Source of the DNA: a virus
DNA: 51,728 nucleotides
Virus record (IMG/VR): IMGVR_UViG_3300042326_001602
Coordinates: 1 to 51,728 of that record
Direction: 5' to 3' (one strand)
Numbering within the stretch: position 1 is the first letter of the stretch; each line of letters begins with the position of its first letter. Positions 5,453 to 51,107 of this stretch are shown here, one piece after another. The translations under genes were made by a program, and so were the position numbers. The notes under the pieces were generated by a model. That model was given only the letters and a program-made list of their open reading frames with translations. It ran no database searches and was not told where the DNA came from.

Positions 5453-6256
5453 TTAGCGGGAGAATCGGCCGTCCGACATGGCTCGACCGAGTTCGTTCAA
5501 CAAATCCTGGCGGGGAGACCCGCCAATGACAATGCCACCTTGCGGCAACCGTCGACCGGCTGCAACGGATGCGTAGAGATCCGGAGCCTGGTTCTGGAGA
5601 TTCATCAGGTTGCGCTGGATGGAGTCCTCGTAGGACGCAGCCTGAGCTTCCTGGGTCAGCCGGTTCATCCGGCCTTCCCGCTCGCTCTGCTCAAGGTCAT
5701 AGATTGCCTTGCGAAGAAGCTCAGTCTCATCTACCCCTGCCGCCTTGTATGCAGCCTTCTTGGCTGCCATTCCCCCAAGCAACCCCAGAGCGGCAACCCC
5801 ACCAGCCCTCAGTACGTTACGGGTAACAGCCTGCCGGCGAAGCGAACCAAACGCCTCGCGAGGCTTCATGCCCTTCTTGTACTTGAGCCCCCGCTTCTTT
5901 GCCAGCTCCTCGAGTTTCTTGGTGTACTGGACATCCCGCTCTTCGTTAGCCGCCTTCATCAAACGCCGCTGCTGCTCAAGCCGCATTCCCGCAAACCCTG
6001 GAGAGCCTTCCGCAGCGGGGCCCATTTCAGGACCTGCCGGCGTAGGACCGACCCGGCTTGAATGCTCGTAAGCCTCCGGAAACGGACCGTGAATCTTCCC
6101 CTTGGGGAACGGACCAACTCGGCGCGGGTGGGGGTAAGCCTTCGGATTTGCGCCAGCGCGAGGGTCAGCCTTCTTGCGGGAAGACGGCTTCTTTGTCGGC
6201 GGCTTCTTGCCGTCAAACAGAGTTGCACCCTTGGGGACAGGCTTTCTCTTAGCCAC
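5453..6256 (-). CDS. Basic virion-associated protein, 267 aa (putative)
   Basis: The start is GTG at 6256, overlapping the end of the upstream gene by 8 bp. The first ~85 residues are Lys/Pro/Arg/Gly-rich and likely disordered. A charged coiled-coil region follows, then a short hydrophobic Ala/Gly/Leu segment (VLRAGGVAALGLLGGMAAKK) and a helical Gln/Asn-rich C-terminal part. That short apolar stretch could insert in a membrane. The position among internal-virion-like genes suggests a minor capsid or ejected protein. Confidence 0.55.
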   Translation of the reverse strand: MAKRKPVPKGATLFDGKKPPTKKPSSRKKADPRAGANPKAYPHPRRVGPFPKGKIHGPFPEAYEHSSRVGPTPAGPEMGPAAEGSPGFAGMRLEQQRRLMKAANEERDVQYTKKLEELAKKRGLKYKKGMKPREAFGSLRRQAVTRNVLRAGGVAALGLLGGMAAKKAAYKAAGVDETELLRKAIYDLEQSEREGRMNRLTQEAQAASYEDSIQRNLMNLQNQAPDLYASVAAGRRLPQGGIVIGGSPRQDLLNELGRAMSDGRFSR

Positions 6257-30162: not shown

Positions 30163-31578
30163 ATGACAGACTGGTTGCAGCAGCCGTTGCAGTCCCTCGA
30201 GCCCGTGAAGGTCGCGAGGAGAATCCTGCAGAGACAGTTTACAGCACCCGGCGGAATGCGCGGGCTATGGAGATGGAAGAATGACTGGTGGAGCTGGGAG
30301 GGCGGAACGTGGCGCGTCCTCGACGAGGAGCGGATCAGGGACCGTGTGTGGCTCGTGCTCGAGGATGCCGTGTTCGAGCGGCAGACCCAGAACGGGCCAG
30401 TGCTGGTGCGGTACAGCCCAGACAAGCAGAAGGTCGACGGGGTCGTCCGTGCGCTCGAGGCGCTGGTTCGCATCGAGGCTGAGGAGGTTCCGCTCTGGCT
30501 TGCGGAGCCGGATGAGCGGTTCCCCGTGGGGTCGACTGTTGCTTTCCGAGATCGGCTGGTTAATGTAAGGACGCTGGAGACCATGGAGCGACCGGCGAGG
30601 TGGTTTGACACGGCCATTCTGCCGGTGACGTACCAGCCAGATGCCCCCACCAGCCGTTGGTTGCAGGCGGTGTCGGAGTGGGGTGAGGGTGATCCCGTGT
30701 GGGCTGAGCTGCTGGCGCGGTGGATGGGCTATTGCCTCATGGGTAGCCGTCAGTATGCGCGGTGGATGCTCATGTACGGGAAGATCCGTGGGGGTAAGGG
30801 CACGATCAGCAGCGTGATCCGGAAGTTGGTGGGGCGCGATGCGTTCATGGGCGCGAGCCTGGAGGACCTGGCCGGCGGGTTCGGCATGGATGGGCTTGAG
30901 CGCACGAAGGTGCTGAGCATCAACGAGGTGAGTGAGCTGGATGGGAAGAGCGGCGAGCGGGTGTGCCGGGTGGTCAAGAACATCGTTGGCCGGGACCCGA
31001 TGACCGTGGATGCAAAGTACATGAGGCAGCAGCGGAACGTGATCGTGAACGCGGCGGTCATCATGCAGAGCAACGAGATCCCCGTGCTGCCCAATAAGGG
31101 GCGCGGGTTGAGTGGGAAGATGCTGGTTCTGCCTTTTGAGGTCAGCTTTGAGGGCAAGGAGGACCTGGATCTGGAGGGGGAGCTGGATCGGGAGTTGGCG
31201 GGGATTGCGGCGTGGGCCGTGGCTGGAGCGCATCGGCTGGAGAACAGCCGGGCGTCAGAGAGGTGGCCGGTGCCGAAGGCTGCGGAGCGGGCGGTGCACA
31301 TGTACCACCTGCAGAACAACCCGTTCGATGCGTTCCTCGAGGCGCGGTTCGTGCAGCGGAAGGACGGGTTCGTGAGCAATGGAATGGTCCGTGCGCAGTG
31401 GGAGGCGTGGACCAAGGCGAACAAGATCCGGATGCACGTGGCGAATAACATGCTGCCGATGAAGATCGCGCAGGGCAGCAGCTGGGACCTGAGGCAGGTG
31501 CGGCTGGCTGAAAGTCAGGGGCATGAGCGGGGAATTGCTGGGATGAGCCTCCGGAAGGAGTACGATGATGAGCACTAG
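30163..31578 (+). CDS. D5/P4-type superfamily-3 DNA helicase, 471 aa
   Basis: Walker A is GKIRGGKGT at residues 206-214, the Arg-Gly-Gly-Lys-Gly form seen in D5-like helicases. Walker B-like LSINEVSEL lies at 251-259, and the SF3 motif C-like segment MQSNEIPVLP at 301-310, followed by the arginine-finger-like KMLVLPFE. The N-terminal 160 residues carry a D5_N-type region (WRWKNDWWSWEGGTWRVLDE). No archaeo-eukaryotic primase domain or DnaG-like Toprim is visible, so it is probably a helicase that depends on host primase or on the phage polymerase. First gene of the rightward arm. Confidence 0.8.
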   Translation: MTDWLQQPLQSLEPVKVARRILQRQFTAPGGMRGLWRWKNDWWSWEGGTWRVLDEERIRDRVWLVLEDAVFERQTQNGPVLVRYSPDKQKVDGVVRALEALVRIEAEEVPLWLAEPDERFPVGSTVAFRDRLVNVRTLETMERPARWFDTAILPVTYQPDAPTSRWLQAVSEWGEGDPVWAELLARWMGYCLMGSRQYARWMLMYGKIRGGKGTISSVIRKLVGRDAFMGASLEDLAGGFGMDGLERTKVLSINEVSELDGKSGERVCRVVKNIVGRDPMTVDAKYMRQQRNVIVNAAVIMQSNEIPVLPNKGRGLSGKMLVLPFEVSFEGKEDLDLEGELDRELAGIAAWAVAGAHRLENSRASERWPVPKAAERAVHMYHLQNNPFDAFLEARFVQRKDGFVSNGMVRAQWEAWTKANKIRMHVANNMLPMKIAQGSSWDLRQVRLAESQGHERGIAGMSLRKEYDDEH

Positions 31579-31586
31579 GAGGCCCG

Positions 31587-31838
31587 ATGAACCCAGACCA
31601 GAACGAGATGATGGGCTGCGAACAGGTGATGGGGGTGGTGATGGGCGATGTCAGCCAGAGGGCGAATGCCGCATTGAAGTATCTGGACTGGCTCGAGGGG
31701 GTGACTGGGCCACGCTGGATTGGTACCGACAAGGGAGCCGTCAAGCAGGACGGACGGAAGGCAAGCGACGGCGAAATTGAGGTCCGGAAGGCAGCTCTGC
31801 ACTATTTGCGGCTGCACTTCCTGGGCGAGATGGACTAA
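31587..31838 (+). CDS. Hypothetical protein, 83 aa
   Basis: It starts 9 bp after the helicase stop with ATG behind AGGAGGCCCG, a good ribosome-binding site. The N-terminus is Met/Gln-rich; a helical body (ANAALKYLDWLEG; EVRKAALHYLRLHFLGEMD) follows. No family is recognised. It is the last gene before the strong terminator at 31862. Confidence 0.65.
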   Translation: MNPDQNEMMGCEQVMGVVMGDVSQRANAALKYLDWLEGVTGPRWIGTDKGAVKQDGRKASDGEIEVRKAALHYLRLHFLGEMD

Positions 31839-31861
31839 ACTAGGCCTCTTCTCTCCATGCG

Positions 31862-31897
31862 CCCCCTGCCGTTCTCGGACGGTGGGGGGTGTCTTTT
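31862..31897 (+). terminator. Rho-independent terminator after the helicase gene pair
   Basis: CCCCCTGCCG (31862-31871) pairs with CGGTGGGGGG (31880-31889), including two adjacent G-U pairs in RNA. The 8-nt loop is TTCTCGGA and TGTCTTTT follows. Confidence 0.8.
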
Positions 31898-32060
31898 ATG
31901 CAGGGGGTGGGTGCATATGCAGGGATGATACCGGGGGTACCGGACTGACCTGTGCGTTTCTATCCTTTATATATATATGTCTCTACGTAAGAAAGAAGGG
32001 TTGGTATTACTGGTACGGGTTAGGGATTTGGTAGGGAATTTTGAGAGGGATTGACCCTTT
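31898..32060 (+). promoter_or_regulatory. AT-rich island: candidate promoter region or replication origin
   Basis: Inside the 467-bp gene-free gap 31839-32305. It contains the 10-bp palindrome TGCATATGCA (31912-31921), an inverted CCGG repeat around GGGTA (31932-31944) and an alternating (AT)n run at 31966-31978, then A/G-rich direct runs. It is the clearest low-GC patch in the window. Such patches serve as DNA-unwinding elements or strong -10 regions; I cannot distinguish these by eye. Confidence 0.45.
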
Positions 32061-32207
32061 CCCCCACAGGCTGACGCCACGCCGGGGGCCGCGCCCCCCT
32101 CCGCTGCGCACGCCTACACAGCCAGCCTACCGCAGGCCGATAACACACGCCACAGGCACGCAGACCACAGCCGTTGACGCTCACGCTCTTGCGAGTCGGC
32201 AAGGATC

Positions 32208-32243
32208 CTCCCCCCCTGCTGCGAGGGGGGAGATGTCTTTTCT
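32208..32243 (+). terminator. Terminator-like hairpin before the 134-aa gene
   Basis: CTCCCCCC (32208-32215) pairs with GGGGGGAG (32225-32232); ATGTCTTTTCTTT follows. The rest of the gap (32061-32207) is GC-rich with short inverted repeats such as GGGGGCCGCGCCCCC and no convincing gene. Confidence 0.75.
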
Positions 32244-32284
32244 TTCCGCACGTCGCGGATACGGCATCTTCCTCTATACCACAC

Positions 32285-32305
32285 GTTCCGCGAAAGGAAC
32301 ACGCC
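32285..32305 (+). promoter_or_regulatory. Hairpin-embedded Shine-Dalgarno leader
   Basis: GTTCC (32285-32289) can pair with GGAAC (32296-32300), placing the AAGGA ribosome-binding site partly in the stem; the loop is GCGAAA. The ATG at 32306 follows five bases later. The related leader at 32883 has the compensatory version GTCC/GGAC. Confidence 0.6.
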
Positions 32306-32710
32306 ATGAAGCAGTCCGAGTTCGCCGCCATCGTCGCCTCGCTCCAGTCCGAGATCGCCTCGCTCAAGCAGCAGGTCGCCGCCCGCCCCGCGATGGAGCG
32401 CGACACCACGGTCGTCGTCGTCGACCGCCTCGCGCCGTCGGAGTCCGGCAAGCCCCGCGTCCGCGTCCGCATCAGCAACACGGGCGCGAAGCCGATCGTC
32501 GTGCAGCCGGGCACCGAGCACTCGTTCTTCGCCAACGAGTTCGTCCGCGACATCAGCGGCGGCAAGCGCAACGGCTTCTACTGCCGCCCGATGACGGACG
32601 GCGTCAAGCCGATCGGCGAGCAGCAGGGCTCGCCCGCCGCCGCGAACGCGATCGCCGCGGCCACGCCTGCGCCGGCGCCGGTCGCGTCTGACGACGATCA
32701 GAAGTTCTGA
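32306..32710 (+). CDS. Hypothetical protein, 134 aa
   Basis: The ATG at 32306 is set by the CGAAAGGAACACG leader. Residues 1-30 form a helix/coiled coil (IVASLQSEIASLKQQVAARP); 35-110 form a beta-rich domain (TTVVVVDRLAPSESGKPRVR ... GKRNGFYCRPMTDG); the C-terminus is an Ala/Pro linker ending in SDDDQKF. The acidic tail recalls SSB-type tails, but the core does not match an OB fold that I can recognise. Strong codon bias and a private leader suggest high expression. Confidence 0.65.
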   Translation: MKQSEFAAIVASLQSEIASLKQQVAARPAMERDTTVVVVDRLAPSESGKPRVRVRISNTGAKPIVVQPGTEHSFFANEFVRDISGGKRNGFYCRPMTDGVKPIGEQQGSPAAANAIAAATPAPAPVASDDDQKF

Positions 32711-32726
32711 GCCGATGCAGCGGGAG

Positions 32727-32752
32727 GGGGGCTGGAGCAATCCAGCCCCCTT
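32727..32752 (+). terminator. Perfect GNRA-loop hairpin terminator
   Basis: GGGGGCTGGA (32727-32736) and TCCAGCCCCC (32741-32750) enclose a GCAA tetraloop, 15 bp after the stop of the 134-aa gene. Only two T residues follow, so it may mainly protect the mRNA 3' end. Confidence 0.7.
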
Positions 32753-32815
32753 CGCGCCGGCTAGCGCCTGGGCGTCCCTGGGGCGACCTTTCCCACCCCG
32801 CCGTCTCTGCTGTTT

Positions 32816-32850
32816 CCCCCTCTCTCTGGGGAGGGGGTGTTTTCTCTTTC
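32816..32850 (+). terminator. Second terminator before the 127-aa gene
   Basis: CCCCCTC (32816-32822) pairs with GAGGGGG (32831-32837), then TGTTTTCTCTTTCC. A second, perfect 8-bp hairpin follows at 32854-32873 (GACGCAGC, GCGT loop, GCTGCGTC). Together they separate two small expression units. Confidence 0.7.
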
Positions 32851-32882
32851 CCCGACGCAGCGCGTGCTGCGTCCTCACCACA

Positions 32883-32902
32883 GTCCGCGAAAGGACACGA
32901 CC
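32883..32902 (+). promoter_or_regulatory. Hairpin-embedded Shine-Dalgarno leader, second copy
   Basis: GTCC (32883-32886) pairs with GGAC (32893-32896) around GCGAAA; CACGACC leads to the GTG at 32903. The stem differs from that at 32285 by a coordinated change on both sides, which supports pairing. Confidence 0.6.
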
Positions 32903-33286
32903 GTGCACAAGACGAACGAACTCACCGACTTCCTCCACGCCGCAATCACCGCTCAGAAGGTGATCATCGAGCGGCAGGCGGACCTGATCCAGCGCCAGAT
33001 GGAGATGATCCGGACGCTCATGTCCGACCAGCGTCAGATGGTGCAACTCGTCAGGACGCTGAGCCTCGACACCGTCGCCCAGAAGAACGACTACACCGCC
33101 CCGGAGGTCGTCCTCGACGGCAGCGCCGTCAAGTGGGAAGACGACAAATCGGAGGACATGGACCCGGAGCCGCACGGCAGCCGCGACCCCATCGGTCCGC
33201 GTGACCTGATGCCCGAGTGCCAGGCCTGCGGCAACTCCGTCCCGCTCGACGCCGACTGCCGGTGCTCCGGCTGCGGCAACGGCTGA
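32903..33286 (+). CDS. Coiled-coil protein with C-terminal zinc ribbon, 127 aa
   Basis: It starts with GTG at 32903, placed by the conserved leader. Residues 1-55 form a helical, amphipathic coiled coil (IIERQADLIQRQMEMIRTLM). A linker of acidic and Pro residues follows. The C-terminal 24 residues hold a Cys cluster: ECQACG (C106, C109), DCRCSGCG (C119, C121, C124), typical of a small zinc-binding ribbon. First of three consecutive small Cys-rich proteins with the same type of leader. Confidence 0.65.
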   Translation: MHKTNELTDFLHAAITAQKVIIERQADLIQRQMEMIRTLMSDQRQMVQLVRTLSLDTVAQKNDYTAPEVVLDGSAVKWEDDKSEDMDPEPHGSRDPIGPRDLMPECQACGNSVPLDADCRCSGCGNG

Positions 33287-33323
33287 TCCACCGGGGCGAT
33301 GCGACCGCCCCATTCCCCCACCA

Positions 33324-33339
33324 TCCGAAAGGACACGAC
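33324..33339 (+). promoter_or_regulatory. Shine-Dalgarno leader, third copy
   Basis: TCC-GAAA-GGA (33324-33333) forms a minimal GNRA-loop hairpin; CACGAC then leads into the ATG at 33340. Confidence 0.55.
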
Positions 33340-33504
33340 ATGAAGACCTGCCCCAACTGCGGCGGAAACATCATCGGTGACGGCGTCACCACCCCTCTCG
33401 CCTGCGAGAACGTCGACACCGCTCTCGTACCCGAAGAAGTCGACGGCGACATCATCTTCTGCGACCGCTCCGAGGACTACGAAGACCAGGTCCTCCCACG
33501 CTGA
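33340..33504 (+). CDS. Small Cys-containing protein, 54 aa
   Basis: It begins MKTCPNCGGNIIGDGVTTPL, a CxxC zinc-ribbon-like start (C4, C7), with further Cys at ACENVD and IFCDRS. The rest is acidic (DRSEDYEDQVLPR). Start fixed by the conserved leader. Likely a metal-binding mini-protein; function unknown. Confidence 0.6.
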   Translation: MKTCPNCGGNIIGDGVTTPLACENVDTALVPEEVDGDIIFCDRSEDYEDQVLPR

Positions 33505-33521
33505 ACCCACCCACACCCACC

Positions 33522-33535
33522 CCGAAAGGACACGC
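33522..33535 (+). promoter_or_regulatory. Shine-Dalgarno leader, fourth copy
   Basis: CCGAAAGGACACGC immediately precedes the ATG at 33536; CC and GG can close a GAAA loop. Confidence 0.55.
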
Positions 33536-33685
33536 ATGGACAACCCAACCCGGTGCGAGTGCTGCGACAAGGAGTTCACCGACTCCGACGACGCCTGGCC
33601 CTGCACCCACCACGAGCCGGACGGAACCCCCGACACGTACTACCTCTGCCGCAACTGCATGGGCGTCGACCCCAAGGAGACCTGA
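33536..33685 (+). CDS. Small Cys/His protein, 49 aa
   Basis: The sequence holds CECCDKEF, WPCTHHEP and YYLCRNCM, giving CxCC, CxHH and CxxC clusters suited to a zinc-finger-like fold. It ends 1 bp before the next gene. Start placed by the conserved leader. Function unknown; probably nucleic-acid or protein binding. Confidence 0.6.
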   Translation: MDNPTRCECCDKEFTDSDDAWPCTHHEPDGTPDTYYLCRNCMGVDPKET

Positions 33686-33686
33686 C

Positions 33687-33902
33687 ATGGACCCGATCAT
33701 CTACCTCACCATCTCGCAGACCCAGGGACAGGCCGTCATGCAGATCACCGGCCAGCGCATCCAGGACCTCTCGGAACGGCTCACCTACGACCACACCACC
33801 ACGTCCCGCTCCGACCTGCTCTGCCAGATCAAACTCCTCACCGAAATCATCGCCGAGGTCAACCACGCCATCCGCCGTGCCGATGAAGCCAAGACGTTCT
33901 GA
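33687..33902 (+). CDS. Hypothetical protein, 71 aa
   Basis: It starts with ATG 1 bp after the previous stop, behind AAGGAG. A short beta start (MDPIIYLTISQTQGQ) is followed by a helix (TGQRIQDLSERL) and a second helix (LLCQIKLLTEIIAEVNHAIR). No family is recognised. It is co-transcribed with the Cys-rich trio and ends at a terminator. Confidence 0.6.
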   Translation: MDPIIYLTISQTQGQAVMQITGQRIQDLSERLTYDHTTTSRSDLLCQIKLLTEIIAEVNHAIRRADEAKTF

Positions 33903-33913
33903 CTTCCTCCTTT

Positions 33914-33953
33914 CACCCTCTCTCCTGTGGAGAGGGTGTTCTCTTTCTTTCTT
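33914..33953 (+). terminator. Terminator
   Basis: CACCCTCTC (33914-33922) pairs with GAGAGGGTG (33930-33938); TTCTCTTTCTTTCTT follows. A strong intrinsic terminator. Confidence 0.8.
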
Positions 33954-33987
33954 ACCCCTGGGACTACCACTCCCACCTCGTTCTCCT

Positions 33988-34043
33988 CCCGTGCGGGGGG
34001 AGTGCTTGCGCACCCCCCGCACGGGGGTGCAACCGTTTCTTTC
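33988..34043 (+). terminator. Very stable terminator before the second SSB-like gene
   Basis: CCCGTGCGGGGGG (33988-34000) pairs perfectly with CCCCCCGCACGGG (34013-34025), 13 bp, then GTGCAACCGTTTCTTTC. The pyrimidine-rich tract that follows carries the CGGAGA ribosome-binding site for the gene at 34076. Confidence 0.8.
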
Positions 34044-34075
34044 TTCTTACTTCTTTCCTTACTTCGGAGATTGCC

Positions 34076-34678
34076 ATGACTGAGATCAAGTTCGACTCGC
34101 TCGCCAACGCCGACTTCGGCACGTTCGCCAACCCGACGCCGACCGACTACCCGGCCGGCCGCTACTCCGCCACCATCAACCGCGTCGTGCCCCAGACCGC
34201 CGACAAGTCCGGCAAGTTCTGCCTCCGCTTCCAGGTCCAGATCGCCGTCGACAAGTTCGAGGGCAAGCCGCAGCTCCGCCTGAACGACTTCGTCTCCTTC
34301 ACCGGACCGAACGGCTTCATGTGGGCTGGTGCCAACGTCTTCTGCGACCTGGCCGTCATCTCCGGCCTCGACCGCGACGAGGTCTACGCCAGCTGCAAGA
34401 ACCTCGCCAAGGCCCTCGAGTCCGGTGACATCCTCGCCATCCGCGACACCTTCCTCGCCTTGGCCGAGGTCGCCAAGACGTTCGTCGGCTCCCGCATCGC
34501 GCCCAACATCGCTTGGACCGAGGACGGGAAGTTCGCCAACGTCAGGGGCAGCAAGACCGTGCCGTCCTATGTCTCCGCCCGCAACGAGACCGACCCCGGC
34601 GCCTCGTTCACCGGCGACGACTGCGACATGGAGCGACAGCCCAAGCCGAAGCGCAACCTGAAGGCTGTCCGCCGCTGA
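34076..34678 (+). CDS. SSB/DUF669-like protein, 200 aa (putative)
   Basis: The opening half has an OB-fold-like alternation of strands with YPAGRYSATINRV and FCLRFQVQIAVDKFEGKPQL; helices follow (EVYASCKNLAKALE; IRDTFLALAEVAKTFV), and the C-terminus has a basic tail (ERQPKPKRNLKAVRR). The opening pattern parallels the 173-aa SSB-like protein at 51182 (WPAEGQHEVFVSSLNVR ... ISFRYQLI). A single-strand-binding or recombination-mediator role is inferred. It follows a terminator and a pyrimidine-rich leader, the same layout as at 51182. Confidence 0.5.
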   Translation: MTEIKFDSLANADFGTFANPTPTDYPAGRYSATINRVVPQTADKSGKFCLRFQVQIAVDKFEGKPQLRLNDFVSFTGPNGFMWAGANVFCDLAVISGLDRDEVYASCKNLAKALESGDILAIRDTFLALAEVAKTFVGSRIAPNIAWTEDGKFANVRGSKTVPSYVSARNETDPGASFTGDDCDMERQPKPKRNLKAVRR

Positions 34679-34692
34679 TCCATCCGCTCGCT

Positions 34693-34727
34693 CCCCCACC
34701 GGCCTCTGCTCTGCACGCCGGTGGGGG
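34693..34727 (+). terminator. Hairpin after the second SSB-like gene
   Basis: CCCCCACCGGC (34693-34703) pairs with GCCGGTGGGGG (34717-34727), an 11-bp perfect stem with a 13-nt loop. No T-run follows; the next leader (GCGAAAGGAATCCG) begins 9 bp later. Confidence 0.65.
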
Positions 34728-34750
34728 ACGGGCATCGCGAAAGGAATCCG

Positions 34751-35350
34751 ATGTCCACCCACAAGCCAATGCTCCCCTCGCTCGCCGTCTCAGCCCTGCT
34801 CGTCCCGCTTCCATTCTCGTCCTGGGTCGTCCGCCACGCGGAGATCGACGCTCACACCCCGTCCACCCTGCCCAACCTCCCGCTCACCGAGGACCACCGT
34901 CCCTACCTCTCGCCCCCATCCTCCGACGCCATCGAGCCCATCCCGTTCCCGGCCGAGGACGACGGCACCTTCGCCGAGGAGTTCTCGTTCCGCGCCGCAT
35001 GGGAACTGACCCGATCGCTCGAGTCCCTGCCCCCAGCCTGGCGCTCCGCGTACCGTCGCTGGAACCGCACCCTCTCCGAGCAGCACCGACTCTCGATGGC
35101 CGCAGGCGGAGCGCACCGCTTCGCACAGCACGAGCCCATCGTCATCCACACTCCGCCCCGTCCTCCAGCCCCGACCGTCATCCTCTCCGGCCACGCGACC
35201 GATGTCCGGCGCGCCATGCGTTCGCGCCTGTACCGCCGGCTCGGTATCGTCCGCTGCGCCCGCACCAATCGCCTTGCCCGCGACCCCGACTCGTCGTGGA
35301 CATCGCACGCACCACTCGACCGCCGCGTCCTGTGGGCGCAGCCCTCCTGA
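34751..35350 (+). CDS. Hypothetical protein, 199 aa
   Basis: ATG at 34751 follows the AAAGGAATCCG variant of the conserved leader. The N-terminal 27 residues are apolar with Ser/Pro (PSLAVSALLVPLPFSSWVV) and could be a signal or membrane segment. A long Pro-rich, acidic linker follows, then a basic Arg-rich helical C-terminal half (RSAYRRWNRTLSEQHRLSMA; RRAMRSRLYRRLGIVRC). No family is recognised. Confidence 0.55.
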   Translation: MSTHKPMLPSLAVSALLVPLPFSSWVVRHAEIDAHTPSTLPNLPLTEDHRPYLSPPSSDAIEPIPFPAEDDGTFAEEFSFRAAWELTRSLESLPPAWRSAYRRWNRTLSEQHRLSMAAGGAHRFAQHEPIVIHTPPRPPAPTVILSGHATDVRRAMRSRLYRRLGIVRCARTNRLARDPDSSWTSHAPLDRRVLWAQPS

Positions 35351-35489
35351 TCCGTCGACAGCCCTCCGTAACTCGGTGGCGTCCCATAGGGACAATGCCT
35401 TCCCGTAGTGGAAACAACCGATGGCGGGCAACCGTAGCAGCCAAAGTCCCGGCTAGCCGTACGACCCAGGGCAACTGATCCTTTCGCAT
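35351..35489 (+). other. Gene-free stretch with short inverted repeats
   Basis: About 140 bp without a supported gene. It contains GTCCC-ATA-GGGAC (about 35382-35394) and several short GC pairings, so it may be transcribed as a structured 3' region or small RNA. No tRNA cloverleaf fits. It ends in the terminator at 35490. Confidence 0.4.
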
Positions 35490-35545
35490 CCCCCGCGCAG
35501 GGCCGCGTTGCGTCCCCTGCGCGGGGGACTTCTTCTTTTCTTGTC
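35490..35545 (+). terminator. Strong intrinsic terminator
   Basis: CCCCCGCGCAGGG (35490-35502) pairs perfectly with CCCTGCGCGGGGG (35515-35527), 13 bp, followed by ACTTCTTCTTTTCTTG. The next gene starts at 35568. Confidence 0.85.
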
Positions 35546-35567
35546 CGCCTCCGGACCAAGTCATCCC

Positions 35568-35843
35568 ATGTCGACCCCCATCACCGCCAAGTACCAGATC
35601 TTCTGCGCCATCAACACCTACGGCCGCATCATGCAGGTCTGGGGCACACCGTCCGGCGCATTCCCCGAGGTCATCGCCACCGACTTCCCCGACCCAGACA
35701 CCTGCACAACCCACCTCGTCTGCGCAACCAACTCCTTCACCGAAGCCTTCCGCTCGTGGTCCGGCAACGCCCACGTCTGCCGCAACACCTGCCGATACCT
35801 CGCCGTCAGCTGCCACACCATCAACCCCGAACTCGAGGACTGA
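35568..35843 (+). CDS. Hypothetical protein, 91 aa
   Basis: It starts with ATG at 35568, after the terminator tail; no strong ribosome-binding site is visible (GACCAAGTCATCCC). A beta-like start (YQIFCAINTYGRIMQVWGTP) is followed by a Cys-containing helical part (NAHVCRNTCRYLAVSCHTIN). Three bp separate it from the DUF932-like gene, so they are co-expressed. Function unknown. Confidence 0.6.
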   Translation: MSTPITAKYQIFCAINTYGRIMQVWGTPSGAFPEVIATDFPDPDTCTTHLVCATNSFTEAFRSWSGNAHVCRNTCRYLAVSCHTINPELED

Positions 35844-35846
35844 ACC

Positions 35847-36626
35847 ATGCCTGCCCCCACCAACCACCTCTATCTCCACTGCGGCGCGTCCGAGATCGCC
35901 TTCGATGACCTCGCCATGATCGTCCCGCCCGAGCCCACTCCCTCGTGGCACCCCATCCCCCACGCCAGCTACGTCACCGCCATCCGTGACTCCATCTCCA
36001 TGCTCGGCGGTCGCATCACGTCGCAGACCCTCGCCATCAAGCCCGGTCACACCGGCGCCGACAAGCTCTTCGGCCTCATCGAGTTCGAGCATCCGCGCAT
36101 CACACCCCGACCCTCGGGCACCGTGGGCTTCGGGTTCCGCGGATCGTGGGACAAGACCTTCGCCCAGTCCGGCATGCTCTCGTTCCGCACTTTCGTGTGC
36201 GACAACATGGCGATGTCCGGCGGCGATGCCATCTCGTTCCACCGCAAGAACACGCCCGGTCTCGCCGACAACTACGAGACCACCATCGCCACGGCCATGA
36301 TTGACTTCATCGCCCACGCGAACCGCTTCGTCGGCACGCTCAACGACTTCGACATGTACGCCCTGCCCGACACCCGTGAGTTCATCGACACCACTGCCTG
36401 CGCTCTCGCCGACAGAGGCGCAGTCCTGTGGCAGAACGTCCCCCACCTGCGCCGTGAACTCTCCAACCCCGCCGGTCCCGGCGGCCTGTTCCCCGACCGC
36501 TCCGCCGGTCTCACCAAGGGCCTCGTACTTCAGGCCATCACCGAAGTTGAGAAGCGTTCGCTCAACGCCCTCTCCACCGTCGACCGCATGCAGTCCGCCA
36601 CCGCTTACCTCCAAGAGATCTGCTGA
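35847..36626 (+). CDS. DUF932-like phage protein, 259 aa
   Basis: The central part (GFGFRGSWDKTFAQSGMLSF, then RTFVCDNMAMSGGDAISFHR and KNTPGLADN) matches the recurring DUF932/phage-plasmid-like pattern: a shared 'G..S.DKS....GM..FVCDN....G' followed by a His/Lys stretch. Members are common near replication and recombination genes in phages, with no firmly known activity. The C-terminal helix carries ITEVEKRSLNALSTVDR. It lies in a tight cluster with the 91-aa and 203-aa genes (2-3 bp gaps). Confidence 0.7.
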   Translation: MPAPTNHLYLHCGASEIAFDDLAMIVPPEPTPSWHPIPHASYVTAIRDSISMLGGRITSQTLAIKPGHTGADKLFGLIEFEHPRITPRPSGTVGFGFRGSWDKTFAQSGMLSFRTFVCDNMAMSGGDAISFHRKNTPGLADNYETTIATAMIDFIAHANRFVGTLNDFDMYALPDTREFIDTTACALADRGAVLWQNVPHLRRELSNPAGPGGLFPDRSAGLTKGLVLQAITEVEKRSLNALSTVDRMQSATAYLQEIC

Positions 36627-36628
36627 CC

Positions 36629-37240
36629 ATGAACACCACCTTCGCCACCCGCACCCGTCCGTTCACCAGTCCGTACCCCATCGACAACATCCGCTCCGAG
36701 GCTGTCGCAAGCCGCGATCGCCGCAACCGCGAGCGTGACGCACGCATCAAGTCCCTCGTCGCATCCGCTCCTTCCCACAACAAGGACGAGTTCTACTGGA
36801 CCATGATCTACGACCTCGAGGAGGCGCCGACCATGACCGCTCGCTCCATGCTGCTCGAACACGGCATCATCCCCGTTCCGCCCCAGGAACTGGTCACCAC
36901 CGCCGACACCCACGACGAACTGTGGACCGTGATCGAGGCGCTCTCCCGCTGCAGCGTCTATCTCGTCAACACCAACCACCTCTGCGACCGAGACCTGTAC
37001 TCCCGCCTGTACTACCGCATCCTCGATGAGGAATGCCGAGCCATGCCCCCGTCCACCGAGGCAGCCGAGTACGTCGACTGCCTGCACCCGATGGATCTCC
37101 AGTACCCGCTCGGCAAGCAGATGCCGCAGCTCACCTCCGCTCCCTCCTCCCAGTCCACCGGCAGCTACGCCCGTGGCCCTGAGTACAACGTCATCGGCGC
37201 GATCTGCGACCGTGACGATTACCTTCCCCGTCCCTGGTAA
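36629..37240 (+). CDS. Hypothetical protein, 203 aa
   Basis: It starts 2 bp after the DUF932-like stop. The N-terminus is basic (SRDRRNRERDARIKSLVASA); the middle is helical with acidic and Tyr-rich patches (HNKDEFYWTMIYDLEEA; RDLYSRLYYRILDEECR); the C-terminus ends AICDRDDYLPRPW. No family is recognised. Last gene of this segment before the structured gap at 37250. Confidence 0.6.
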   Translation: MNTTFATRTRPFTSPYPIDNIRSEAVASRDRRNRERDARIKSLVASAPSHNKDEFYWTMIYDLEEAPTMTARSMLLEHGIIPVPPQELVTTADTHDELWTVIEALSRCSVYLVNTNHLCDRDLYSRLYYRILDEECRAMPPSTEAAEYVDCLHPMDLQYPLGKQMPQLTSAPSSQSTGSYARGPEYNVIGAICDRDDYLPRPW

Positions 37241-37249
37241 CAACCTCAC

Positions 37250-37319
37250 GGGGGCAGGCCCGATTCTCTGACGAGATGCCCAGGCACGTTGCCTGTCTCA
37301 TGCGTCGGGACCTGCCCCC
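37250..37319 (+). ncRNA. Long structured hairpin, possible small RNA or mRNA 3' structure
   Basis: GGGGGCAGG (37250-37258) pairs with CCTGCCCCC (37311-37319); CCCGA (37259-37263) with TCGGG (37305-37309); GAGA (37273-37276) with TCTC (37296-37299); AGGCA (37282-37286) with TGCCT (37290-37294). These nest into one 70-nt rod. It lies within a 320-bp gene-free gap (37241-37560). The gap ends with GCTGGTGGGG at 37525 and the uracil-glycosylase ribosome-binding site; nothing else is recognisable in it. Confidence 0.45.
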
Positions 37320-37560
37320 ACCAAGCCACCTTGGACCAGCCCGTCGGCCGCGACCTGGTCCGCGTGGGGCGCACCGCAGATCCTCTGCCCGTACAGCGGA
37401 GGGAAGGTGCGTCCGTATCCCACAGCCACCCGTCCTCCTCTGAGCACCGTCGCCTCTGCTACTCCCTGCCGTGATATCCGCGCACAGTACGCACGCACAC
37501 TACGGTCACCACGATAAGGCTCTGGCTGGTGGGGTACATTCATCAACCCCGAGGTCACAC

Positions 37561-38235
37561 ATGCAACTCACGCTGCTCCCGTCCAAGCCGTCATGCACGG
37601 CGTGCGATCTCCACTCCGCCGCCAAGAACGTCGGCATCCCGTCCCGCCATCTCCCCACCAGCCTGCCCCCTGACTCGGCCAACCCCGTGGTCATCGTCAT
37701 CGGCATGAACCCTGGCACACAAGAGGACCGAGCAGGCGAGTGCTGGATCGGACCCTCAGGCCAGCTCCTTGCCGGTCCCTACCTCACCGGCTCGACCGTC
37801 TCGTCCCTCGCCACCGTGTACCTCTGCAACGTCGCCCGTTGCGTCTCGCCGGGCGGCAAGCCCAAGCCGGCGCACTATCGCACGTGCTTCACCAACACGT
37901 TGCTTGACATCACCACGATCCTGGACCATCATCACGCCTCGCCTGCCCGTGCCATCCTGTGCGCCGGCGCAGACCCGGTCACCTACCTCAGCCGCACCTT
38001 CCAGCGCAAGGCCATGTCCCAGCAGGACGCGTTCCGTGCGCAGGGCATGTCCATCCCGACCCTCACCCGCACGCACCTGTTCGCCACATACCACCCGGCC
38101 GCAGTCCTGCGCGAGCCCGGCCTCATCCATCCCGTCGCCGACCACCTCGCCCTGCTCCGGAACTTCCTGACCGGCGACCTGGCCCGGCCCACCGCCCCGC
38201 TCATCCGCACCCCGTTCCTCCCGAGGACCACATGA
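37561..38235 (+). CDS. Uracil-DNA glycosylase superfamily protein (family 4-type), 224 aa
   Basis: It removes uracil from DNA. Motif 1 is GMNPGTQEDRAG (48-59), the counterpart of the usual GEAPG.xED; the late motif is TYHPAAVLREP (176-186). Four Cys (12, 15, 94, 109), in CTAC and NVARC ... YRTC, match the 4Fe-4S ligands of family 4 enzymes. The catalytic-region Glu-Ala of typical members is replaced by Met-Asn in GMNPG, so activity may differ. ATG at 37561 has GAGG six bases upstream. It overlaps the next gene by ATGA. Confidence 0.8.
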   Translation: MQLTLLPSKPSCTACDLHSAAKNVGIPSRHLPTSLPPDSANPVVIVIGMNPGTQEDRAGECWIGPSGQLLAGPYLTGSTVSSLATVYLCNVARCVSPGGKPKPAHYRTCFTNTLLDITTILDHHHASPARAILCAGADPVTYLSRTFQRKAMSQQDAFRAQGMSIPTLTRTHLFATYHPAAVLREPGLIHPVADHLALLRNFLTGDLARPTAPLIRTPFLPRTT

Positions 38236-47923: not shown

Positions 47924-48193
47924 ATGGCGAAGGGCGACCGCATCCTCCGCATCCGTGGCCAGAGATGGCGGCTCAGGTTCGTGACGAACCTAGGCGACGC
48001 CGAGGGGATCTGCAACAAGGAAGAGCGGATCATCCGCATCGCGCTCGGGTACACCGAGGACCGCACGCTGGACTCGATCATCCACGAGATCCTGCACGCC
48101 GCGCTCTGGGACCTGGACGAGGAAGCCGTGCACGACACAGCCAACGCCATCTCAGCCGCCCTCTGGCGTCTCGGCTACCGCCGTGACCCGTAA
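47924..48193 (+). CDS. HExxH metalloprotease-like protein, 89 aa
   Basis: The HEILH motif (54-58), in LDSIIHEILHAALWDLDEEA, is the zinc-protease HExxH signature; Glu66-Glu67 are possible third ligands. An N-terminal beta part (RIRGQRWRLRFVTNLG) precedes it. Small phage-encoded zinc peptidase-like proteins of this size are common; the substrate is unknown. The motif CCCCACCAGCC lies exactly between the previous TGA and this ATG, so any ribosome-binding site must lie in it or in the previous gene. Confidence 0.75.
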   Translation: MAKGDRILRIRGQRWRLRFVTNLGDAEGICNKEERIIRIALGYTEDRTLDSIIHEILHAALWDLDEEAVHDTANAISAALWRLGYRRDP

Positions 48194-48362
48194 GAAACAC
48201 TTACCACTTTTCCTTACCGCTTACGAAACGACCGCTTCGTAAGAGCCCATTTGCTGAGCGGGATTCCCACTACCCGCATTGCCGGTATACCCACGGCATC
48301 TTGTTCTTGGCCCAGCCTAGGCGAGAGATTAGATCATCAGCATGGGTGAAGTACATACTACA
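48194..48362 (+). promoter_or_regulatory. Candidate operator/promoter region before the nuclease gene
   Basis: It contains repeated CTTACC elements (48199, 48213) leading into an inverted repeat CTTACGAA (48220-48227) / TTCGTAAG (48236-48243). The spacing suits an operator for a dimeric regulator or a short transcript hairpin. A less GC-rich stretch (about 48300-48345) follows. No gene fits here. Confidence 0.45.
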
Positions 48363-48363
48363 A

Positions 48364-48416
48364 CGCTCCCCCCTAGAGTCGCGCATGCGGGGGAGCGCTA
48401 CGCGCCCCGCATGCGC
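48364..48416 (+). promoter_or_regulatory. Two mutually exclusive hairpins: possible leader switch
   Basis: Stem A: CGCTCCCCC (48364-48372) with GGGGGAGCG (48389-48397). Stem B: GCGCATGCGGGG (48381-48392) with CCCCGCATGCGC (48405-48416), 12 bp perfect. The two compete for GGGG at 48389-48392. Stem B ends eight bases before AGGAG of the nuclease gene at 48437. This is the layout of an attenuator or translational switch. Confidence 0.5.
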
Positions 48417-48436
48417 TCACCCCAGGAGTCCCACCT

Positions 48437-49672
48437 ATGCCCCCACCGACCCAGACTGTCCATTACCCCACCAGCATCTGCGATCCCAACGTCCGCCCAT
48501 GGCTGGAGGCCCACGGCATCTTTGCCCGCAAGCCCCCCATCCGCTCAAGCGACTACCGGCTCGTCCGCTCGTGCCCCCGCACCTACTACCTGTCCCGCCG
48601 GCTTGGCCTGGTCAAGGCGTTCCAGTACAGCGCAGCCCTGACCCGCGGCAGCTGGGTCCACCTCGCATTCGCCTGCATCCTCGATGACCCCACCGACCGA
48701 GCACTGACCCTCGAGCAGGCCATCGCTGCACGCTGCGAGGAACTGCGCGGAGTGTGCAAGCAGCTCGGCGTGTCCGGCGAGAAGACCCGGGAGATGATCG
48801 CCCGCGAGGACCTGGACGCACGCACCAGCATCGCGTGGTTCAACGCAGCCCTCCAGATCCCGGACGGCAGCGGACGCACCCTGGCCCAGCGCTTCGCGGA
48901 GGACTGGGTCGTGGTAGCGCAGGAGCCCGAGATCCGCCACGGCGACCGACTGATCCAGCCCGACTGCCTGCTCAAGGACAAGGCCGGCAAGCTGTGGATC
49001 GTGGACTTCAAGACCACCGGCATGTCCACCAACGCACGCCTGCAAACCTGCCCCCTCGAGTTCCAGACCCAGCACTACTTCCACACCTTCCTCGACAAGT
49101 CCCGTGACGAGGCTGACTTCGCCGGGCAGTACGGCATCAGCTGGCCCGGAGAGATTGGTGGGGTCCTGCACGTCGCGATCCGCAAGCCGTCCATCGAGTT
49201 CGGCATGAAGGACCGTCCGTTCACGCTGGACGAATCGCCGTTCAAGAGCGGACCCCGCAAGGGCGAGCCGCGCAACGAGCGCATCTACACGGGCGAACCT
49301 GACCCGTACCTGTACGAGCAGCGTTGCGTGGATTGGTACATGGGTCGCGGAGAGTACAGCCACTTCGAGCCCGAGCGTCTGACTGACCCGTGCGTTGCGA
49401 TTTCCACCACATCCGCGGAGCTTTTGCTTGCGGAAGATCTCAAGTCGGAGTACCATGCTCGCCTGTCCTTCATCCGGAAGTACACGAGCCTCCAGTCCTA
49501 TCCCAGCGAATTCGAGATCGGTGATCCGGTAGTCCAGCACGGGACTCCGTCGCCGTACCTCCCGTTCCACATGGTCGAGCCTGGCAAGTGGCCCGAGTTG
49601 ATCCTGGCTGAAGGGTTCCTGCAGAGAGACAGAGACACCCACACGGAGATCGACAATGGAGGAGACGCCTAA
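48437..49672 (+). CDS. PD-(D/E)XK exonuclease, RecB/Cas4-like, 411 aa
   Basis: Motifs: SDYRLVRSCPRTYYLSRRLG (38-57, Cas4/RecB-like start), GSWVHLAF (71-78; His75), IQPDCLLK (173-180; Asp176), IVDFKTTG (188-195; Asp190, Lys192) and EFQTQHYFH (208-216; the QxxxY-like motif). These define the RecB nuclease domain of the PD-(D/E)XK superfamily; a C-terminal extension is present. It probably resects DNA ends for the Sak4-like recombinase downstream. ATG at 48437 has AGGAG nine bases upstream. It overlaps the next gene by 17 bp. Confidence 0.85.
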   Translation: MPPPTQTVHYPTSICDPNVRPWLEAHGIFARKPPIRSSDYRLVRSCPRTYYLSRRLGLVKAFQYSAALTRGSWVHLAFACILDDPTDRALTLEQAIAARCEELRGVCKQLGVSGEKTREMIAREDLDARTSIAWFNAALQIPDGSGRTLAQRFAEDWVVVAQEPEIRHGDRLIQPDCLLKDKAGKLWIVDFKTTGMSTNARLQTCPLEFQTQHYFHTFLDKSRDEADFAGQYGISWPGEIGGVLHVAIRKPSIEFGMKDRPFTLDESPFKSGPRKGEPRNERIYTGEPDPYLYEQRCVDWYMGRGEYSHFEPERLTDPCVAISTTSAELLLAEDLKSEYHARLSFIRKYTSLQSYPSEFEIGDPVVQHGTPSPYLPFHMVEPGKWPELILAEGFLQRDRDTHTEIDNGGDA

Positions 49673-50186
49673 CCCCACCAGCCAGGAAGCAGGGAAGTCC
49701 GTCCTCGGACCCGTTATCTGGCAAGAGGTCCTGCGCAAGGTGATCGCGCCCAAGGTCACGGTCATCGTCACGCAGTACGGCAACGACATCGAGAACCGGC
49801 AGCAGCTGCACCGCAAGTTCTGCGAGGAGTACGGCATCCGTCCGTCCTACTCCACCTTCAGCAGCTGGTGCGAGGATCTGGGCATCAGCTTCCGCAAGAA
49901 GATCGAGGTCCACATCCCGGGCTGGAAGGAAATGCCGCGTCCGACTCCCGACTTTATAGGACCGATGCCGGCATACCCGGCAACAGAGACGAAGAAGGAA
50001 CAGTCGGTAGCGAAGCAGATCGTTCCGGAAATTCTTCAGGAAGAGGAAGATGCACCGATTGTCTGGGACACGAAGGTACCGCCTCAGAAGCCATCGCAGA
50101 AGTTCAATGAAGATGGGATGCCGACCATTCTTCCCGGAGGGATGAGGATGCCCTCGTTCATTGATTCCGGAAACTACGGCAACTAA
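49656..50186 (+). CDS. HTH-like DNA-binding protein, 176 aa (putative)
   Basis: Residues 45-82 (DIENRQQLHRKFCEEYGIRP, then SYSTFSSWCEDLGISFRKK) look like a helix-turn-helix with a basic wing, such as in recombinase or transposase DNA-binding parts. The C-terminal 90 residues are Pro/Gln/Glu-rich and disordered. It begins 17 bp inside the nuclease gene and lies between nuclease and Sak4-like ATPase, so it may guide or regulate recombination. CCCCACCAGCC covers codons 6-9 just after the nuclease stop. Confidence 0.55.
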   Translation: MEETPNPTSQEAGKSVLGPVIWQEVLRKVIAPKVTVIVTQYGNDIENRQQLHRKFCEEYGIRPSYSTFSSWCEDLGISFRKKIEVHIPGWKEMPRPTPDFIGPMPAYPATETKKEQSVAKQIVPEILQEEEDAPIVWDTKVPPQKPSQKFNEDGMPTILPGGMRMPSFIDSGNYGN

Positions 50187-50207: not shown

Positions 50208-51107
50208 ATGACACACTCCGTCACCCACGGTTCGACTGTCGCATCCAAATACGCAGGGCTCGGCAATGCCGTCACCACTGGTCGCACTACTCCTTCCCGC
50301 ATGCTTGGTCTGGTGGTCGGTGAGGCTGGCTGCGGCAAGTCTTTCCTCCTCCAATCCCACCCTGGCGCGTACATCCTCAACCTTGACGAGACGCCTGCGG
50401 TCTGCGGCACCAGCGAGGCCGTCATGTTCCCCACCCCCGGTCCTGACGGCCGATCGGTGGACGAGAAGGGAAGCCCCATCGTCCTCGACTGGGCCGCGCT
50501 CGAGGCGAAGCAGAAGGTCCTGATCGACCTTGCCAAGAGCAACCAGCCCCGCCCCGAGACCGTCGTTATCGACACGCTCGGTGCTGCGATTCGCCTGCTG
50601 CGTCCGCACATCGCCAAGATCTACGGGCGCGAACGGTTCACCGACGTCGACGGTCGGCTTGGCTGGGAGCGCCTGTTCGACACACTCATTGAGTTCGGCA
50701 CCACGCTGCGCCGACACGGCTACGGCGTGTACTACATCGCCCACCTGTCCCGAAAGCACGTCCCGCTGAGCGAGAACCAGAACGTGGAGGAGTACAAGAT
50801 CCTTATCAGCGACGGTCTGTACGCCCGCATGTTCCCCATGTTCGACATCGTCATCCCCGTCACCGCGCAGTGGGACGTGCGGGAGATCACGCGTGATCAG
50901 GAAGCCAACGTCGGCGGCAAAGTCGTTACCCGCAAGGTCACGACGCAGGAAAAGGTCCGTCGCCACTACTGCTCTTTCGACAACCCAAAGCTGGAAGGCA
51001 TCGCCAAGGTTCGTACCCTGTCGCCGCTGACCACCATTGAGCTCCCGAGGGACAACGCATGGCAGTCGTTCTGCTCTGCGTACGAGAGCGCGAACGCGTC
51101 CCGCTGA
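50208..51107 (+). CDS. Sak4-like RecA-fold ATPase, 299 aa
   Basis: Walker A is GEAGCGKS (38-45); Walker B is ETVVIDTLG (117-125). The rest follows phage Sak4/AAA_24-type ATPases: a LILN-like strand (HPGAYILNLDETPAV) and HGYGVYYIAHL after a long helix. Sak4 proteins promote single-strand annealing together with a phage SSB, and the SSB-like gene lies 75 bp downstream. It begins with ATG at 50208 behind CAGGAG. A strong hairpin covers its final codons. Confidence 0.75.
   Translation: MTHSVTHGSTVASKYAGLGNAVTTGRTTPSRMLGLVVGEAGCGKSFLLQSHPGAYILNLDETPAVCGTSEAVMFPTPGPDGRSVDEKGSPIVLDWAALEAKQKVLIDLAKSNQPRPETVVIDTLGAAIRLLRPHIAKIYGRERFTDVDGRLGWERLFDTLIEFGTTLRRHGYGVYYIAHLSRKHVPLSENQNVEEYKILISDGLYARMFPMFDIVIPVTAQWDVREITRDQEANVGGKVVTRKVTTQEKVRRHYCSFDNPKLEGIAKVRTLSPLTTIELPRDNAWQSFCSAYESANASR

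Follow-up and report, generated by a model that had tools for sequence, protein, structure and literature searches.

The window, by which we mean the whole stretch of viral DNA analyzed (51,728 nucleotides), carries near its end an exonuclease gene that shares an operon with a Sak4-like recombinase gene. The product of the intervening gene was matched to the DUF4817 helix-turn-helix domain below the Pfam cut-off (E = 0.0077), which makes it a candidate regulator of the palindrome described below. The genes and the ribosome-binding site are as follows.

47924–48193, plus strand: SprT-like metallopeptidase gene, which adjoins an RNA element in two phage groups
48424–48428, plus strand: ribosome-binding site AGGAG, kept in close relatives
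48437–49672, plus strand: exonuclease gene (PD-(D/E)XK nuclease, phrog_1218)
49656–50186, plus strand: second operon gene, a candidate regulator with a weak helix-turn-helix match
50208–51107, plus strand: Sak4-like recombinase gene, same operon as the exonuclease

About 50 uncultured viral contigs with exonuclease relatives were fetched, and their upstream regions were used for the conservation tests. Among annotated isolate phages, no protein match to the exonuclease or the terminase was found, nor any DNA match to the control region or the RNA element. Between the SprT-like gene and the ribosome-binding site, the following features were delimited on the exonuclease side.

48346–48363, no strand assigned: 18-bp palindrome GTGAAGTACATACTACAA, a candidate operator or activator site at the -35 position
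48374–48379, plus strand: -10 hexamer TAGAGT of the putative exonuclease promoter, at a fixed spacing from the palindrome
48385–48387, plus strand: predicted exonuclease transcription start, placed 6–8 nt after the -10
48364–48397, plus strand: stem 1 (48364–48372/48389–48397), 9 bp, unconserved as judged from pairing in relatives and folding
48381–48416, plus strand: stem 2 (48381–48392/48405–48416), a perfect 12-bp hairpin, conserved as judged from pairing in relatives
48389–48398/48413–48423, plus strand: alternative helix favored in RNA from the predicted start; unconserved, its 3' arm varying in relatives

The palindrome lies upstream of the exonuclease gene in all clades that have an intergenic region, and it is perfect (GTGAAGYANNTRCTTCAC) in several outer clades; in the exonuclease relatives that do not have it (L044 and L046–L049), the gene follows closely behind the upstream gene. 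There is no second copy in the 51.7-kb window. In every palindrome-bearing clade, the -10 hexamer begins exactly 28 nt from the palindrome start, and the intervening sequence differs between clades. The variants of this hexamer, TAnnnT forms included, are TAGAGT, TAAAGT, TATAGT, TAGATT, TAAGGT, TACGGT, TAGAAT, and GACAAT. A consensus promoter scan found no promoter, and the -35 hexamers are poor. From its sequence, we take the control region to be a promoter whose start sites are predicted, the one for the exonuclease falling in the 5' arm of stem 2.

The RNA of this region folds well: the 48340–48440 segment reaches -47.5 kcal/mol, compared with -32.2 (sd 3.8) for shuffled sequences (z = -4.1; 0/200 as good). 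The earlier note on this DNA had described two hairpins directly upstream of the exonuclease ribosome-binding site and proposed that they compete as a switch. The geometry it gave is accurate. The arms of both the 9-bp and the 12-bp stem are 100% complementary, GGGG at 48389–48392 is common to both, so that the stems are mutually exclusive, and the last base of stem 2 (48416) shortly precedes the AGGAG (from 48424). A third overlapping helix that the note did not list (48389–48398/48413–48422, 90% complementary) was also detected.

Conservation is found for stem 2. A perfect stem of 12–15 bp occupies its place in all 26 loci compared. In the 15 close relatives, every one of the 180 cells is Watson-Crick (100%), and 2 of the 12 pairs are doubly changed (C-G to A-U; C-G to U-A or A-U). 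The arms of the outer clades are very different in sequence (e.g., GAAATGAGCGGGCGG) yet perfectly paired, and both arm and loop length vary between clades. In RNA reading through from the upstream genes, stem 2 forms with a probability of 0.90–1.00 in 24/24 loci, its energy being -27.1 to -30.8 kcal/mol versus -18.7 for stem 1. Elsewhere in the window, the stem-2 arm recurs no more often than expected by chance. Of the two stems in the note, the one nearer the exonuclease ribosome-binding site is borne out as conserved and covarying by the comparison of relatives, namely by the 26 perfect loci and the compensatory changes, but the same check gave nothing comparable for stem 1.

Stem 2 might be a hairpin at the 5' end of the exonuclease mRNA that guards it from decay. 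A hairpin of this kind, in the ompA leader, protects that mRNA. This analogy fits the position of the stem, bracketed in every clade by the -10 and the ribosome-binding site, and the stem would still form in RNA from the predicted start in L021, L025, L028, L029, L039, and L051. In five of these (all but L039), most or all of stem 2 comes after the predicted start, and its overlap with the start is thus not universal. In the window and most close relatives, however, at least 4 of the 12 pairs precede the predicted start, stem 2 is mostly lost from the corresponding transcript, and another helix is preferred there. These outer pairs are nonetheless conserved and covarying. Because they covary though missing from the predicted-start transcript, we favor with moderate confidence a role for stem 2 in the read-through RNA (insulation or processing), and regard protection from decay as a somewhat unlikely alternative.

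We give about the same modest weight to the idea that stem 2 acts as DNA, either as an operator dyad or a cruciform located at the transcription start, or as a repeat kept perfect by template switching. None of the loci compared has a G-U pair in stem 2, compared with 11 G-U cells in the neighboring RNA element, and the stem overlaps the promoter. Template-switch repair of inverted repeats is a described process (PMC7202029, PMC8604942), and the perfect, G-U-free arms could come from such repair or from recognition at the DNA level. On the other hand, the arm sequences differ strongly between clades, so that a sequence-specific protein would need to co-evolve with them, and the variable lengths of arm and loop also speak against this reading.

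It is less likely still that stem 2 is an intrinsic terminator of the upstream genes. It is a GC-rich stem of 12–15 bp downstream of the upstream stop codon in all clades, but an intrinsic terminator is a GC-rich hairpin followed by a U-tract, and no U-tract follows stem 2, where the terminator scan gave no terminator-like site, even though the same phage has canonical hairpin and U-tract terminators elsewhere. Within 31500–37600, 11 terminator-like sites were found versus 2.4 expected. A cluster of strong hairpin and T-tract terminators lies between small early genes at 31859–35529.

The least probable reading of stem 2, and a very doubtful one, is a riboswitch or attenuator in which exonuclease transcription or translation is governed by exchange between the 9-bp and 12-bp stems. 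In its favor, the two stems exist and exclude each other, stem 1 would be the earlier to form as the RNA is made and would give way to a completed stem 2, and some relatives retain partial pairing of the C-rich and G-rich arms of stem 1 (84% of cells in 15 close sequences). Against it, perfect pairing of stem 1 is confined to the window and near-identical copies, a particular pair is broken in 11 of those 15 sequences, its own arms pair no better than swapped ones (p = 0.05 for all loci, 0.16 for the close group), its ensemble probability is 0.000 in every fold tried, including the full RNA, and stem 2 has no U-tract behind it. The left arm of stem 1 precedes the predicted start, lying in the gap that separates the -10 hexamer from the palindrome; RNA made from the promoter would lack this arm, and read-through RNA would hold it. 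The locus resembles leader riboswitches and attenuators in having hairpins directly upstream of a ribosome-binding site, but such leaders conserve both of two exclusive structures, whereas only stem 2 is kept here, and there is no known aptamer and no Rfam match.

On the other side of the palindrome, a conserved block with sharp borders extends toward the SprT-like gene, and alignments of it show four helices. Its features, listed 5' to 3' on the minus strand where applicable, are as follows.

48355–48360, minus strand: -10 hexamer TAGTAT of a putative minus-strand promoter, inside the palindrome and 7 nt before the predicted RNA 5' end
48347–48245, minus strand: cloverleaf RNA element of ~100 nt, predicted 5' end at 48347, supported by covariation
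48342–48337/48257–48252, minus strand: helix P1
48334–48331/48301–48298, minus strand: helix P4
48297–48295/48283–48281, minus strand: helix P3
48277–48273/48262–48258, minus strand: helix P2
48326–48322/48269–48265, minus strand: loop-loop pseudoknot
48220–48243, no strand assigned: imperfect 11-bp inverted repeat adjoining the RNA element; relatives have other inverted repeats in its place

Run unguided on the minus strand, RNAalifold returned the same four-helix cloverleaf, with 6 of 18 pairs doubly changed. With the pseudoknot included, 94.8% of cells pair and 7 pairs are doubly changed; the covariation score was reached by 0/500 shuffles, and slid versions of the structure pair in at most 48.1% of cells. 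The strand is indicated by the wobble pairs: the 11 helix cells with a standard but non-Watson-Crick pair all read G-U on the minus strand and A-C on the plus strand, and these cells cover at least 5 separate positions or lineages. A plus-strand cloverleaf was dropped on account of these mismatches. The pseudoknot joins the loop of the first arm to that of the last; 81% of its cells pair, and its variation is mainly G-U exchange, apart from a single compensatory C-G to U-A change in L009. Single-sequence folding z-scores of the minus-strand RNA are modest (-0.3 to -4.2), and no recognizable terminator was found for it. The element thus has the covariation-supported structure and defined strand expected of a phage small RNA.

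The minus-strand -10 tracks the element. All 12 promoter haplotypes with the RNA element (L019 and L024 counted as carriers) have TAnnAT at this place, all those without it do not, and palindrome-bearing phages without the element have AAnnnn there. On the exonuclease tree, presence of the element changes about 4 times (gains or losses). Joint recombination of the palindrome change and the RNA element, rather than selection for a promoter, could also account for this pattern.

Pattern searches located the RNA element in the window group, in a second phage group (L081 and L083–L088), and in contig L074. Known copies score 78–107 bits with the covariance model; L074, which was left out of its building, scores 52.8 bits (E about 1e-13). 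Each genome that carries the element has a single confident copy, and in the second group a TATACA-like box lies directly upstream of most copies. The element is absent from the fetched contigs L007 (51.0 kb) and L051 (45.5 kb), records that are possibly incomplete. A broader gapped pattern revealed no further groups among viral contigs. A match in L025 (16.9 bits, E = 0.04) was rejected as chance, lying inside an apparent DNA polymerase gene, as were six pattern matches from a search of 85,000 bacterial genomes, each match lacking the remaining conserved parts.

The orientation of the element relative to the SprT-like gene varies: the two converge in the window group and share a strand elsewhere, with the element upstream of the gene in the second group and downstream of it in L074. 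These three orientations make a cis-leader unlikely and argue for a stand-alone RNA gene. We consider it unlikely, more broadly, that the minus-strand element is a DNA element (an origin or recombination site) or the leader of a protein gene instead of a small-RNA gene. Its sharp borders, its presence and absence between close relatives, the replication and recombination genes close by, and the RNA-based origins known in actinobacteriophages (PMC7157519) are in keeping with such a reading, but it would leave aside the confinement of G-U pairs to one strand, the -10 hexamer that tracks the presence of the element, and the variable orientation, and in the window no same-strand gene lies directly downstream.

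The surroundings of the element are variable in their own right. The earlier note's further inverted repeat at 48220–48243 was recovered (arms 48220–48230/48233–48243, 91% complementary); this segment, which separates the RNA element from the SprT-like gene, is mosaic among relatives. L002 and L004, near-identical to the window in the exonuclease, have a different inverted repeat (GTGTAGTGCTTTCTACAC), and the distant L030 has the same one as the window (CTTACGAAACGACCGCTTCGTAAG). In L074, a canonical hairpin and T-tract terminator and a TATACT palindrome lie between the SprT-like gene and the element (5560–5808). In L081 and L083–L088, a noncoding stretch of ~500 bases downstream of the element, toward tail-fiber-like genes, holds several inverted repeats (e.g., TATGGTTCTAACCTGACCATA) and may contain further structured RNA.

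No Rfam 15 family matched the window, L008, or L081 forms of the element at the gathering threshold, and a permissive threshold yielded only sub-threshold matches ascribed to chance (FinP, snoZ247, and miRNAs). The resemblance to FinP (RF00107) is that of a GC-rich minus-strand hairpin scoring weakly (21–25 bits), below the 45-bit gathering score, with hairpin shape alone in common. The element is closer in outline to tRNA, having a four-way cloverleaf in tRNA order: a closing stem, a 2-nt joiner, a 4-bp arm, a middle arm, then a short joiner and a 5-bp arm abutting the closing stem, with the loops of the first and last arms in contact as the D-loop and T-loop are (RNAalifold fold; pseudoknot 81% of cells). 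Unlike tRNA, it has a last loop of 10 nt with no T-loop consensus, a middle loop of 3 nt in minimal forms in place of a 7-nt anticodon loop, and no CCA end, and ARAGORN called no tRNA. In the extrachromosomal prophages of mycobacteriophages Alma and LadyBird, a noncoding RNA is found at the replication origin, adjoining parABS, and was shown to be necessary for stable lysogeny (PMC7157519). That RNA is likewise a phage noncoding RNA in reverse direction adjoining an operon (PMC7157519), but the element described here adjoins recombination genes, and the two are likened by description only. From sequence comparison, the minus-strand element probably represents a new, previously undescribed family of phage small RNAs. 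A far more speculative and rather improbable proposal is that it mimics the tRNA fold and would act in trans, perhaps serving as a decoy for, or an inhibitor of, a host tRNA-handling or RNA-based defense factor, its expression coupled to that of the recombination operon by a common operator.

On balance, we think it likely, though far from certain, that the locus is a two-sided control region and not a riboswitch. On the plus strand, the palindrome over the -35 position and the -10 would drive the operon of the exonuclease, helix-turn-helix-like, and Sak4-like genes; on the minus strand, the second -10 within the same palindrome would start a structured small RNA of ~100 nt, and both promoters would answer to a single palindrome-bound regulator. 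Stem 2, a single conserved hairpin straddling the exonuclease start, would take its full form in RNA from the upstream genes, where it probably insulates the operon from read-through RNA or marks that RNA for processing; transcripts from the local promoter would begin inside its 5' arm in most relatives. Behind this model stand the conservation, covariation, spacing, and co-occurrence reported above, from which we infer the start sites, operator function, insulation, the production of the small RNA, and any function it may have.

The covarying RNA with its loop-loop pseudoknot, which lies outside Rfam 15 and has one copy per genome in each of two phage groups, is a new candidate phage RNA family. 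The divergent promoters over one palindrome, with a small-RNA -10 that comes and goes with the RNA itself, would, if true, be a compact way for a phage to wire a small RNA to a recombination operon.
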